This document shows positions 25,028-28,181 of a stretch of DNA of 41,048 nt, in pieces; within the stretch, counting starts at the first letter, position 1, and each line of letters opens with the position of its first letter. The translations under genes were made by a program, and so were the position numbers. Source of the DNA: Acidobacteriota bacterium (GTDB lineage Bacteria; Acidobacteriota; Terriglobia; Acidiferrales; UBA7541); contig QHYE01000076.1 of assembly GCA_003224055.1 (NCBI GenBank), positions 1 through 41,048 of the forward strand, given 5' to 3'. Under the pieces are notes generated by a model, which saw nothing but the letters and a program-made list of their open reading frames with translations, did no database searches and had not been told where the DNA came from.

Positions 25028-25384
25028 ATGCGTTTTACCAAGCCAATGCTGCTGGCGGTGGTAGCGATTGCCCTCGCTGTGTATGCGTTCGATTGCCTTG
25101 CCATGTCGACGCCCGAGCAGGCGATGCAATGTTGCGATTCGATGCCCTGCTCATCGCACGGCCACCAGCACAGCCAGGAATGCTGCAAGACGATGCCGTC
25201 CATGCACGCGCCTTTTGTACAGCCGGCTTCGACGCATGGTTCATCCTTCACACTCGTTTTCGTCGCCGCGCTCCCGGCGTTTAGTGCATCGCACGGCTTA
25301 TATTCCCCAGCAGGCGTCCTTACCGCGCATTGCCACGCGCCGCCAATTTCCCAAATAGCGACTTCCTCACCTCTTCGCATCTAG
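25028..25384 (+). CDS. Small exported Cys/His-rich protein, possible metal binder
   Basis: A 118-residue protein whose first 26 residues form a signal peptide or anchor (MLLAVVAIALAVYAFDCLA). A cluster of cysteines, histidines and methionines follows at about 35-65: CCDSMPC, HGHQH, CCKTM, MH. This resembles soft-metal-binding sequences (copper, mercury, zinc). A second hydrophobic stretch lies at about 74-86. I do not recognise a family. It opens a co-directional run of five genes that includes an outer-membrane protein, the HMA protein, a TlpA-like thioredoxin and a cation-efflux-like protein, which supports a metal role. No ribosome-binding site precedes the ATG. The C-terminal third has little character. 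Confidence 0.6.
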   Translation: MRFTKPMLLAVVAIALAVYAFDCLAMSTPEQAMQCCDSMPCSSHGHQHSQECCKTMPSMHAPFVQPASTHGSSFTLVFVAALPAFSASHGLYSPAGVLTAHCHAPPISQIATSSPLRI

Positions 25385-25458
25385 TCAGCCTTCCAGTCGT
25401 CTCCCGGCTTCGCGGGTGGGTGTGCCTCGGCACATTACTTTCTGCTGGAAGGAAAATA

Positions 25459-26421
25459 ATGGGATATCGAAACGCAAGAGGTCGTGGGCGATCTTTGGTG
25501 TTCGCTCTGGTTCTGTTGTCGCTTTTGGCTTCCGTGGCAAGTGCGCAAGGCCCTGCCCCCGAGACGGCGCCTCCGCTCTTCCCTGGCGGGGGACTCATTT
25601 CTTACAACTCCATTTTCACCACACGTGGACTGATCTCCAACCTGCCCGGGAATATTCCCTTGACCGCCCGCCCTACGTTTTCGCACGAAGGTGACTTCCA
25701 TTTCACTTGGGGCTTCCGCCGCGATTTTGATTTGACGGTGCTGGTACCTGTGATCACCAATCATTTCGAAATATCGAAACCGATTCGAATGCCTATGAGC
25801 GGCGGTACAGGCCTGGGCGATGCGATGGTACTCGTGAAATACCGCTTCTACCGCCGGGATTCCAAACGAGGCACTACGCAAGCTTCTGTAACGCTAGGCC
25901 CCAAGGTTCCGACGGGCCGAACCAATCTAGCTGACAGGAACGGAAAACGGCTCCCTGCAAGTTTGCAGCCCGGTTCGGGCTCCACCGATTTCTTCGTGGT
26001 GGTGAATTGGACGTACACCGGCCTCTTCAATGTCAGGCGGCTTGTTGCCGACGAAGAGTTCCATTCCCTGTTGCGCTCTCAAGGCACGCAACAGACGCAC
26101 CTCGGCAGCGACCTCGAATCACGCTTCTGGCTCTCCTACCGGCCTTACGAATCGAAGAACGGGGCCCGTGAATGGTTCATTGGACCTGTTGTGACTTGGC
26201 TGCACTCTCAGGATGACCGCATCGCGGAAGTCAACCAGACCGGGAGCGGTGGCGACGTATTGCTGGCCGGAGTCACAACGTATGTGGGCGTGTGCCCCGG
26301 GGTGCACCTGTGGCTCGGCATGGACTGGGACGTTGCGCATTCCGCGGGTGCCATGTTCATGCCGGTCCGTCGTCACATCAGTTTCGGAGTCACTCGTCAG
26401 TTTCGGCTTCACTTCCAATGA
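25459..26421 (+). CDS. Outer-membrane beta-barrel-like protein (MetA-pathway/phenol-degradation type)
   Basis: A 320-residue exported protein with a signal peptide (about 1-29, ending SVASAQ). The rest is made of alternating amphipathic strands rich in Tyr, Phe and Gly, such as FHFTWGFRRDFDLTVLVPVITN, GDAMVLVKYRFYRR, ASVTLGPKVPTGRTN and FFVVVNWTY. It ends in a strand with terminal Phe-x-x-x-Phe (FRLHFQ), as in outer-membrane proteins. The PTGRTN and GLGDAMVLVKYR segments fit the 'transporter' family annotated as MetA-pathway of phenol degradation, often found beside metal-efflux genes. GGAAGGAA upstream supports the start. It lies 11 bases before the HMA gene, so they are co-transcribed. Confidence 0.75.
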   Translation: MGYRNARGRGRSLVFALVLLSLLASVASAQGPAPETAPPLFPGGGLISYNSIFTTRGLISNLPGNIPLTARPTFSHEGDFHFTWGFRRDFDLTVLVPVITNHFEISKPIRMPMSGGTGLGDAMVLVKYRFYRRDSKRGTTQASVTLGPKVPTGRTNLADRNGKRLPASLQPGSGSTDFFVVVNWTYTGLFNVRRLVADEEFHSLLRSQGTQQTHLGSDLESRFWLSYRPYESKNGAREWFIGPVVTWLHSQDDRIAEVNQTGSGGDVLLAGVTTYVGVCPGVHLWLGMDWDVAHSAGAMFMPVRRHISFGVTRQFRLHFQ

Positions 26422-26432
26422 AAGGAGGGACG

Positions 26433-26957
26433 ATGAACACAAGAAAACTAGCGTTGCTGTTTTTGCTGGCCTCTTCATTTGTGCCGGTATCGCAGGCGCA
26501 GATCAAGCACATCGAAATGCGCGTCGAAGGCATGACCTGAAACTTTTGAGCCTACGGGGTGAAACAACACCTCGGACGCCAGTCTGGCGTTCAAAGAGTG
26601 GATGTTAGCTTGATCGATGGGAAGGTCGATGTTACGCCGAAAGAAGACGGTCAGATCGATCCTGCGCAACTTCTCAGAGCGGTTTACGACAGTGGTGTGA
26701 CCGTTGCGGAAATGGACGTAATTGCACGCGGAAAAATAGTGAAGGATGCTGCAGGCAATTTCGCGTTGCTGGTTTCGCCCAATCAGTCCTTTGCGATCGC
26801 ATCGAATGATTTACTCAAAGCCGTTGAACCGCTTGCCGATTCACCTGCGGTCGTCACCATTCGTGGCGAATTGTACCGCAAGCCTGCAGGCAAGAAAAAA
26901 GCAGCCGCTTCGGCGCCCCTGAAGCTGCTGATTCTCGAAGTGCAGAAGAAGGAATAG
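26433..26957 (+). CDS. Probable selenoprotein: exported heavy-metal-associated (HMA, MerP-like) protein with a Sec-x-x-Sec metal site
   Basis: Read through two in-frame TGA codons (26538-26540 and 26547-26549), this is a 174-residue protein. Residues 1-23 are a signal peptide (LALLFLLASSFVPVSQAQ). Residues 24-90 are an HMA domain: IEMRVEGMT-U36-N-F-U39-AYGVKQHL, then SGVQRVDVSLIDGKVDV. In homologous families both U positions are cysteines (GMTCxxC), the ligands for Hg, Cu or Zn. The frame stays open for 135 codons after the second TGA and ends in TAG directly abutting the next ATG. AGGAGGG precedes the start. Hairpins that could serve as SECIS follow at once. Residues 91-174 form a second small domain ending in a Lys-rich segment. 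The cell would need selA, selB, selC and selD, which are not in this window. Alternative: a pseudogene with two stops, but both falling exactly on the metal cysteines makes that unlikely. Confidence 0.85.
26555..26592 (+). promoter_or_regulatory. Candidate bacterial SECIS hairpins
   Basis: Hairpin 1: CGGGGTG (26555-26561) pairs with CACCTCG (26568-26574) around AAACAA, one G-U pair, 21 bases after the first TGA. Hairpin 2: GGACGCCA (26574-26581) pairs with TGGCGTTC (26585-26592) around GTC, one G-U pair, 32 bases after the second TGA. Hairpin 2 fits the usual bacterial SECIS rules of a G at the loop start and a 16-37-base distance. Hairpin 1 fits only if its closing G-C pair opens. Both lie within the coding frame, as bacterial SECIS elements must. 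Confidence 0.55.
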
Positions 26958-27488
26958 ATGCTAAAACCATGTCTGTTTTTTTTGAGCCTCGCTGGAGTTA
27001 GTCTCGCCGGAGGCAGTCCGCATCCGGCGAGTTCTCCTCCGCCCAAACAACCTGAAATCGCGGCAGGTGAAATTGGTTCACACCTGCCCGAATTCTCCGT
27101 GAAAGACTTGCAGGGCCGCGAAATCTCATCGGCCGATCTTCGCGGCAAAGTCGTGCTCGTTGATTTTTGGGCCACGTGGTGTCAGCCGTGCAAAAAAGAG
27201 ATGCCCGGCTATCAGAAACTCCTCGACCTCTACGGCTCACGCGGATTTGCCGTCATCGGATTCAAGTTCGATACCATGATGGACATGGAGGACCCCGTTC
27301 AATTCGCAAAGAAAATTGGAGTGCGCTATCCGCTGGCCGTCGCCCCAGACGATTTGAAGCAGAAGTTTGGCGGCATCGAGGGGTTGCCAACAACAATGCT
27401 CTTTGACCGCCAAGGAATTCTTCGGAAGAAAGTCGTCGGATTCGAGTACACGGATGCCCTCGAATCCGCCCTAAAGCCGCTTCTCTGA
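26958..27488 (+). CDS. TlpA/ResA-like periplasmic thioredoxin
   Basis: A 176-residue exported thioredoxin-fold protein. After a signal peptide (about 1-19) comes the AhpC/TSA-redoxin type fold with active site WATWCQPC (71-78, Cys75 and Cys78), preceded by LRGKVVLVDF and followed by the cis-Pro motif GLPTT. TlpA-type proteins reduce disulfides in exported proteins. Its ATG follows the stop of the selenoprotein-like HMA gene with no gap, so the two are translationally coupled. An attractive inference is that it keeps the Sec-x-x-Sec pair reduced. The active site here has normal cysteines, not TGA. The family identification is secure; the partner is inferred. Confidence 0.93.
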   Translation: MLKPCLFFLSLAGVSLAGGSPHPASSPPPKQPEIAAGEIGSHLPEFSVKDLQGREISSADLRGKVVLVDFWATWCQPCKKEMPGYQKLLDLYGSRGFAVIGFKFDTMMDMEDPVQFAKKIGVRYPLAVAPDDLKQKFGGIEGLPTTMLFDRQGILRKKVVGFEYTDALESALKPLL

Positions 27489-27557: not shown

Positions 27558-28181
27558 ATGACGGAAAGTGCAGTTTTGGAACGTAGAACCATGGTGCAGC
27601 GCGGGCGAAGGCTCGAATACTTCACCATCGCGTGGAACACCCTCGAAGGTCTGGTAGCGATCGCCGCAGGTGCAATCGCTGGGAGCGTTTCGCTCGTAGG
27701 TTTTGGCATTGATAGCTTCATCGAAGTCACGTCAGGGGCCGCGCTCCTCTGGAGGATGTCCGCTGATGCAGACGAACGCGGGCGAGAGCGAATCGAGCGG
27801 ATAACACTTAGAATCGTCGGCGCTTGTTTTCTCGCTCTGGCAGTTTATGTCGGCTACGAAGCTACAAGCGACCTGTTCCGGAAGAAAGCACCCGAACATA
27901 GCCTTCCGGGAATCATCCTGGCCTGCGTTTCGCTCGTAGTCATGCCCTTGCTCTCCCGTGCCAAGCGGGGCGTTGCGTCAAATTTGAAGAGTGCCGCAAT
28001 GCGCGCAGATGCGAAACAGACGCAGTTTTGCACGTATCTATCAGCCATTTTGCTTGGTGGGTTAGTTCTAAATGCGGCGTTTAATCTCTGGTGGGCGGAT
28101 CCTATAGCTGGCCTCCTCATGGTGCCAATCATTGCTCAAGAGGGCGTGGAAGGGCTGCGCGGTGACACCTGCTGTGACTGA
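27558..28181 (+). CDS. Short cation-diffusion-facilitator-like membrane protein
   Basis: A 207-residue protein with five to six hydrophobic segments. The N-terminal LEYFTIAWNTLEGLVAIAAGAIAGSVSLVGFGIDSFIEV and the ADAKQTQFCTYLSAILLGGL...WWADPIAGLLMVP region follow the pattern of the CDF membrane domain, with Asp and Gln/Thr residues at metal-site positions. The C-terminal cytoplasmic domain of full CDF proteins is missing; instead it ends in Gly-Asp-Thr-Cys-Cys-Asp. Such short CDF-like proteins occur beside mercury and other metal-resistance genes. The TGA at 28179 looks like a true stop, since the frame beyond it has no family character. It is the last gene of the metal cluster, 69 bases after the thioredoxin gene. 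Confidence 0.8.
   Translation: MTESAVLERRTMVQRGRRLEYFTIAWNTLEGLVAIAAGAIAGSVSLVGFGIDSFIEVTSGAALLWRMSADADERGRERIERITLRIVGACFLALAVYVGYEATSDLFRKKAPEHSLPGIILACVSLVVMPLLSRAKRGVASNLKSAAMRADAKQTQFCTYLSAILLGGLVLNAAFNLWWADPIAGLLMVPIIAQEGVEGLRGDTCCD

Follow-up and report, generated by a model that had tools for sequence, protein, structure and literature searches.

The stretch of DNA analyzed here (the window; 41,048 nt of contig QHYE01000076.1 from an Acidobacteriota bacterium) contains a frame with two in-frame TGA codons, and raises the question of whether these codons end translation or are read as amino acids. Positions 26433-26957 of the + strand form a single frame of 174 codons followed by TAG. 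It reads MNTRKLALLFLLASSFVPVSQAQIKHIEMRVEGMT-TGA-NF-TGA-AYGVKQHL..., with IEMRVEGMT directly before the first TGA. The preliminary description of the locus, made from the letters alone, had noted two in-frame TGAs and no other internal stop, and translation places them at codons 36 and 39 and nowhere else. Judging from its sequence, the soil bacterium appears to secrete a protein for binding heavy metals in which both metal-ligand cysteines are replaced by selenocysteine (Sec). We give a probability of roughly 0.78 to the following reading: a real gene for a secreted HMA protein, with UGA 36 and UGA 39 read as Sec and an OB-like domain after the HMA domain, whose product binds soft metal in the periplasm with outer-membrane-like and TlpA-like partners, and whose mRNA carries one SECIS-like hairpin per UGA. 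The features of the gene are as follows.

26433..26957, + strand: predicted double-selenocysteine HMA protein, 174 aa, UGA codons 36 and 39, stop TAG (translation, Pfam HMA, homologues)
26433..26498, + strand: signal-peptide-like N-terminus, residues 1-22 (by eye from the sequence; model pLDDT is low there)
26499..26708, + strand: HMA domain, about residues 23-92 (Pfam HMA, AlphaFold2 model, Foldseek)
26538..26540, + strand: UGA 1, probable Sec36 (translation; column conserved in close genes)
26547..26549, + strand: UGA 2, probable Sec39 (translation; column conserved in close genes)
26697..26954, + strand: C-terminal beta domain, residues 89-174, weakly OB-fold-like (AlphaFold2 of this part alone, Foldseek, VIA)

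When U was read as C, the Pfam HMA domain (PF00403) matched residues 29-84 with 32.9 bits (gathering score 24.8), and TGA codons 36 and 39 coincide with the two Cys positions of this domain. We searched 89 family genomes (host genome counted) for the selenoprotein and found any match in 21 and a near-full-length match in 16. All 16 near-full-length homologues have exactly two TGAs, at the same two columns, and zero other stops, and the stretch MRVEGMTUNFUAYGV is invariant among them. In the 26 close genes (window's counted), TGA occurs at columns 0 and +3 in every gene and nowhere else in the frame. Median dN/dS among the 26 closest genes was 0.118 after the TGAs (285 of 325 pairs), 0.222 before them (295 pairs), 0.078 in the remainder of the HMA domain (304 pairs) and 0.139 in the C-terminal domain (235 pairs), with pairs of undefined or very low dS left out. 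The low dN/dS after the TGAs indicates that selection acts there on an encoded protein. Standard gene callers can be expected to truncate these genes at the first UGA. The final stop is mostly TAG or TAA; by script reading, TGA ends 6 of the 39 genes with a known end (L022, L023, L024, L052, L054 and L103).

The host genome (4.5 Mb, 95.6% complete) contains the machinery for selenocysteine. tRNA-Sec scored 58.2 bits (cut-off 47) and was called tRNA-SeC (tca) by ARAGORN, and SelB (356 bits against a cut-off of 242), SelD (353 against 125) and SelA (560 against 268) were all found. Among 14 control genomes, tRNA-Sec exceeded its cut-off in 5, SelB in 2, SelD in 2 and SelA in 1, so the tRNA-Sec score alone is weaker evidence than the Sec proteins. 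SelA was over its cut-off in 77 of the 89 family genomes, comprising 15 of the 16 with a near-full-length gene and 62 of the 73 others. SelA alone is thus no predictor of the gene, and co-occurrence discriminates little. The only carrier without SelA over the cut-off is G012, which has a piece beginning at base 1 of its contig. The earlier proposal that both TGAs encode selenocysteine at HMA metal-ligand positions is supported by these comparisons: the TGA columns match the Cys pair of homologues, relatives carry TGA at the same columns, selC, SelA, SelB and SelD all pass in the host genome, and random additional stops are absent from the 16 family homologues. We regard the reading of UGA 36 and UGA 39 as selenocysteine, which would create a Sec-x-x-Sec metal site, as supported.

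Two other readings of the TGAs were weighed. Both could be true stops, in a pseudogene, through an assembly error or as part of a translation leader, and an ORF from GTG 26559 to 26957 could start anew behind them. This is very improbable, given that the same two TGA columns recur in 44 different genes from many assemblies, that dN/dS is low downstream and that homologues have Cys; because 44 genes share the two TGAs, we rejected a pseudogene or sequencing error. Alternatively, UGA might be reassigned genome-wide to another amino acid. The frame would be open under such a code, which is all that speaks for it. Reassignment is scarcely credible in a genome that has the Sec machinery and in which the in-frame TGAs fall only at the two Cys columns, and we rejected it because both flanking genes end in TGA.

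We examined the extent of the family by running a DNA pattern with both TGAs on an 84,980-species collection. Of the 44 stretches that matched, 39 were family members on translation and 5 (L079, L090, L105, L108 and L116) were rejected as chance. With same-sequence copies removed, the set held 41 UxxU genes including the window's, two of which (L063 and L101) are cut by contig ends. Three more (L050, L053 and L056) came from a search of the phylum, giving 44 different UxxU genes in 44 alignment rows, 43 of them distinct; these genes are related to each other and are not independent samples. They add a well-supported family of predicted double-Sec proteins from at least eight Acidobacteriota families, with additional members in further Acidobacteriota records, a bacterial record (L103) and a Methylomirabilota record (L091). 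L078, L096 and L104, labelled Candidatus Acidiferrales, equal close family relatives.

The phylum search gave a match, with two, one or no TGA, in 137 of 396 genomes. At the same two positions, the matches that we fetched have UxxU, UxxC, CxxC or, in one remote case (L066), CxxU. The CxxC homologues in the tree are L051, L055, L057, L058, L061, L070, L072 and L074. Since UxxU, UxxC and CxxC homologues all exist, selenium and sulfur ligands can be compared within one fold. In a tree of 59 rows, the UxxU label needs 3 changes, 2 of them forced by well-supported branches, and all labels together need 5; the deep part of the tree is unsure owing to long branches. On reading two further fetched matches, L165 and L167, we did not find an HMA motif with U. 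The match in G014 (L026) is limited to selenoprotein residues 143-173, at 74% identity, and one frame read there is full of stops; it is possibly a remnant of the selenoprotein.

We compared the predicted protein with known metal-binding proteins. An AlphaFold2 model built with 40 sequences (mean pLDDT 86.8) has an HMA fold and a second beta domain. Its best PDB matches in Foldseek were MerP (1osd, the best, E 6.4e-5) and CopZ (6ff2), and the best matches in VIA were PacS, HMA7 and CopZ domains (Z 8.6-9.0). The C-terminal part modelled alone with AlphaFold2 had a mean pLDDT of 79.0. Against the PDB, this part gave a best Foldseek E of 0.016, with none at 0.001 or better, and VIA Z values of at most 7.3; with no confident match, the label OB-like is tentative. 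With its Sec-x-x-Sec pair, the protein would be a naturally occurring bis-selenolate counterpart of a heavy-metal site that is well studied.

The preliminary description had allowed that the idea of an HMA selenoprotein might not be wholly new, and rightly so. A UxxU metal-binding HMA selenoprotein is already modelled as NCBIfam NF041115 and is a table row in two reviews, in the portions of them available (PMC13188914, PMC9312934); the available portion of the former lists an NF041115-type entry as a putative mercuric reductase with UxxU and 2 Sec. NF041115 (UxxU_metal_bind, metal-binding (seleno)protein) resembles the window protein in placing Sec-x-x-Sec at the ligand positions of an HMA-type domain. 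However, the window protein scores 38.6 bits against a cut-off of 95, over model positions 1-47 of 74, carries an additional domain of about 80 aa and is encoded in a gene cluster of its own. All 40 family members scanned matched NF041115 at E 0.001 or better, and none of the 396 phylum genomes had a match over the 95-bit cut-off. NF045683 (MerT/CopZ fusion-like heavy metal transport selenoprotein) likewise models a selenoprotein, one part of which is CopZ-like (HMA), but the window protein scores 27.1 of 375 bits against it and matches only the CopZ-like end. MerP (TIGR02052; PDB 1osd and 1afi) shares the HMA fold and a periplasmic location, which is taken from the model name for MerP and from the signal-peptide-like start for the window protein. 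The latter differs in having predicted Sec for Cys and an extra C-terminal domain, and scores 28.7 of 92.55 bits. CopZ is cytosolic. The CopZ family metallochaperone model (NF047957) shares the HMA fold and gives the window protein its top NCBIfam bit score, at 50.1 of 85 bits; the window protein differs in its signal-peptide-like start. We rejected filing the protein under NF041115, MerP or CopZ because it lies below each cut-off. UxxU HMA selenoproteins themselves being known, what is new here is a distinct two-domain UxxU family with a conserved gene cluster and paired hairpins predicted after the UGAs. Among the matches listed by a literature search of titles and abstracts, none described this two-domain family or paired hairpins after two bacterial UGAs.

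Many codons from +5 to +18 past the first TGA have a single spelling, including CGC for Arg at +13, GGC for Gly at +16 and GTG for Val at +7 (each in 26/26 close genes). The region after the UGAs is predicted to fold into two adjoining RNA hairpins, which the preliminary description had not mentioned.

26555..26574, + strand: predicted RNA hairpin H1, apical loop 21 nt past UGA 1 (folding, codon-redraw and perfect-stem tests)
26574..26592, + strand: predicted RNA hairpin H2, apical loop GUC, 32 nt past UGA 2 (agrees with published bacterial SECIS constraints)

We redrew synonymous codons 300 times per gene and compared the energy of each region as z. Values below -1.5 were obtained in 44/44 UxxU genes both for H1 (median -2.36) and for H2 (median -2.29). 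The same threshold was passed in 2/12 (H1 region) and 4/12 (H2 region) CxxC HMA proteins, a small and partly remote comparison set, and in 1/5 and 0/5 UxxC homologues; the hairpin of five further UxxC genes passed it in 2/5. A perfect-stem test, identical for all groups, required -5 kcal/mol or better and allowed neighbouring stems 1-2 nt of overlap. UxxU genes had a stem in the H1 region in 43/44, in the H2 region in 44/44 and in both in 43/44. The corresponding counts were 9/11, 0/11 and 0/11 for UxxC and 2/12, 2/12 and 0/12 for CxxC. At -7.5 kcal/mol, the pair was found in 36/44 UxxU, 0/11 UxxC and 0/12 CxxC genes. With strictly separate stems, the pair counts were 17/44, 0/11 and 0/12, the first of which is low because neighbouring stems may share 1-2 nt; the perfect stems of H1 and H2 range from a 2 nt overlap to 4 nt apart.

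In the 44 alignment rows, 88.4% of the cells of the two helices are paired, compared with 81.5% in shuffled alignments (0/500 as high) and 32-52% when the helices are slid. The covariation score of the two helices is 0.185 against 0.103 when shuffled (0/500 as high). Two of the five covariation measures are not clearly above their shuffles: pairs changed on both sides (3 against 2.1; 29/500 as high) and further pair types (10 against 8.7; 49/500 as high). At the base of H2, a G-C pair is changed to C-G in 10 rows, and the four core pairs of the seven in H2 are invariant and hence uninformative on covariation. H1 pairs in two registers, with 78.3% and 64.5% of cells paired, so neither register alone fits all rows. 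RNAalifold on 26 close sequences recovered H2 and part of H1. The predicted fold of the 75 nt from UGA 1 on is only moderately more stable than those of dinucleotide-shuffled sequences (z -1.64; 12/200 as good). At Rfam gathering thresholds, the single match in the window was a tRNA (tRNA-Leu by ARAGORN), with no SECIS family.

UxxC relatives usually have a single hairpin. It is found in 9 of 11 rows at -6.5 to -9.6 kcal/mol, with 5 reaching -7.5; some of these rows come from other HMA branches found with NF041115. Nine UxxC genes of different branches (L140, L142, L154, L162, L025, L059, L060, L065 and L124) place an apical loop CGUGC exactly 17 nt past the UGA on stems that differ in sequence. 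L051 and L156 are the exceptions without the hairpin. At L051 (G465:C87), CxxC and UxxC paralogues lie side by side, and it is the UxxC copy that is without the usual hairpin.

The fdhF gene of Escherichia coli provides an example of a bacterial SECIS. The bacterial SECIS model, in the available portion of PMC13188914, has a loop of 3-9 nt, an upper stem of 4-16 bp, a G in the first two loop positions, a UGA-to-loop distance of 16-37 nt and an energy of at most -7.5 kcal/mol; the same portion states that some bacterial SECIS depart from the consensus. We compared both hairpins with this model in the 44 UxxU genes. The H2 loop lies 31-32 nt from UGA 2 and 40-41 nt from UGA 1. By region fold, H2 satisfies all of these published constraints for UGA 2 in 44/44 genes, agreeing in spacing, stem, loop, G rule and energy; by the perfect-stem test, it reaches -7.5 kcal/mol in 42/44. 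The H1 loop lies 20-22 nt from UGA 1 and 11-13 nt from UGA 2. Spacing, loop size and stem of H1 are within the model in 44/44, and its energy reaches -7.5 kcal/mol in 37/44 (region fold) or 36/44 (perfect-stem test), but it often breaks the G rule (met in 19/44, broken in 25/44). The locus also differs from the consensus in having two adjoining hairpins for UGAs 9 nt apart.

With the published spacing of 16-37 nt, each hairpin fits one UGA only, H1 fitting UGA 1 and H2 fitting UGA 2. In addition, the presence of two hairpins in UxxU genes and one in 9/11 UxxC genes means that hairpin number follows UGA number in most rows. We favour one hairpin per UGA as the probable arrangement, in which H1, at SECIS distance, would help decode UGA 1 and H2 would do likewise for UGA 2. 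A single SECIS serving both UGAs is less probable, and we consider it unlikely. H2 would then be the sole SelB-binding hairpin, and H1 would serve as a collapsible spacer, placing H2 within reach of UGA 1 and melting once the ribosome advances to UGA 2. Consistent with this, H2 by region fold obeys every constraint in all 44 genes and H1 the G rule in just 19, the two stems lie close together (2 nt overlapping to 4 nt apart), and by arithmetic the H2 loop, 40-41 nt away from UGA 1, would come to lie about 21-23 nt from it if H1 were left out. However, 9 of 11 single-Sec relatives place their one hairpin in the H1 region and none in the H2 region, and simple distance rules assign H1 to UGA 1.

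One hairpin per UGA can be extended to a more detailed proposal, for which we would offer slightly less than even odds. The two UGAs 9 nt apart would form a tandem recoding cassette in which H1 reads the first and H2 the second, in a ribosome-timed relay that melts H1 at UGA 2. The cassette would have persisted across Acidobacteriota and in one Methylomirabilota record while acquiring some compensatory changes, with most single-Sec relatives having only one hairpin, and its product would be a periplasmic bis-selenolate metal trap. With the two hairpins, the way in which two selenocysteines are inserted three codons apart on a bacterial ribosome becomes open to direct test.

The selenoprotein gene lies in a conserved cluster with the following neighbours.

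25028..25384, + strand: small Cys/His-rich ORF, 118 aa, first of the conserved cluster (blastp homologue in 17/39 loci; no Pfam match)
25330..26421, + strand: outer-membrane beta-barrel-like protein, start codon uncertain, stop TGA (blastp homologue in 28/39 loci; 30/39 by clustering)
26958..27488, + strand: TlpA/ResA-like thioredoxin with WCQPC, ATG directly after the TAG of the selenoprotein gene, stop TGA (AhpC-TSA, 79.4 bits over a cut-off of 26)

Within the window's clade, 23 of 24 loci have the outer-membrane-like gene upstream; the remaining one (L093) begins at the selenoprotein gene. The outer-membrane-like protein of the window has no Pfam or NCBIfam match; its homologue at L091 (37% identity) matches PF13557 with 30.4 bits against a cut-off of 22. 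The TlpA-like gene has a homologue in 26/39 loci overall and is directly downstream in 24/24 loci of the window's clade. The small ORF at 25028-25384 carries MQCCDSMPCSSHGHQHSQECCKTM and may encode a further metal-binding component of the cluster. A CDF-type cation efflux protein of just 207 aa is encoded at 27558-28181, on the downstream side of the TlpA-like gene.

We read the metal-gene context at picked loci, rather than as a count over all 39. MerA (over cut-off) and a CsoR-like regulator (below cut-offs) are near L085. A MerTP-like gene (119.5 of 180 bits, below cut-off) adjoins L086, and a heavy-metal P-type ATPase and an ArsP_1 permease, both over cut-off, adjoin L091. MerR-type regulators occur at L101 (below NCBIfam cut-offs) and at L087 (over the Pfam cut-off), a locus of the window's clade. 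A Pfam scan of 13 neighbours between 20418 and 34478 of the window gave no mer-type protein, and no MerA was over cut-off in the host genome (best 359.5 of 454.45). The homologue neighbours point to soft-metal handling, perhaps of mercury, and the window cluster itself names no metal.

We propose that the HMA domain, with Sec-x-x-Sec in place of Cys-x-x-Cys and followed by the OB-like domain, would be exported to the periplasm, where the site most likely binds a soft metal ion such as Hg(II) or Cu(I). The neighbouring outer-membrane-like protein may act together with the selenoprotein, and the TlpA-like thioredoxin could keep the Sec-x-x-Sec site reduced. A different function, which we judge improbable, is that the UxxU pair serves chiefly as a redox (diselenide) centre, with the TlpA-like protein as its partner, rather than as a metal carrier. 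SelL has a diselenide, and the constant position of the TlpA-like gene directly downstream in the window's clade is consistent with a redox role. UxxU is also reported in a Prx-like family in the available portion of PMC2398784. However, an HMA fold whose best structural matches include MerP and CopZ, together with the metal-resistance genes beside several homologues, argues for metal binding.

The neighbourhoods contained two further elements. An NHL-repeat-like protein is encoded near the selenoprotein gene in 8/39 loci (L082, L085, L086, L094, L100, L101, L107 and L118), all outside the window's clade; the one at L118 scores 176.8 bits with NF035926, short of the cut-off of 350. At L100:3875-4783, an outer-membrane-like ORF has an N-terminus that by eye resembles the start of MerA, and is perhaps a remnant of a lost merA.
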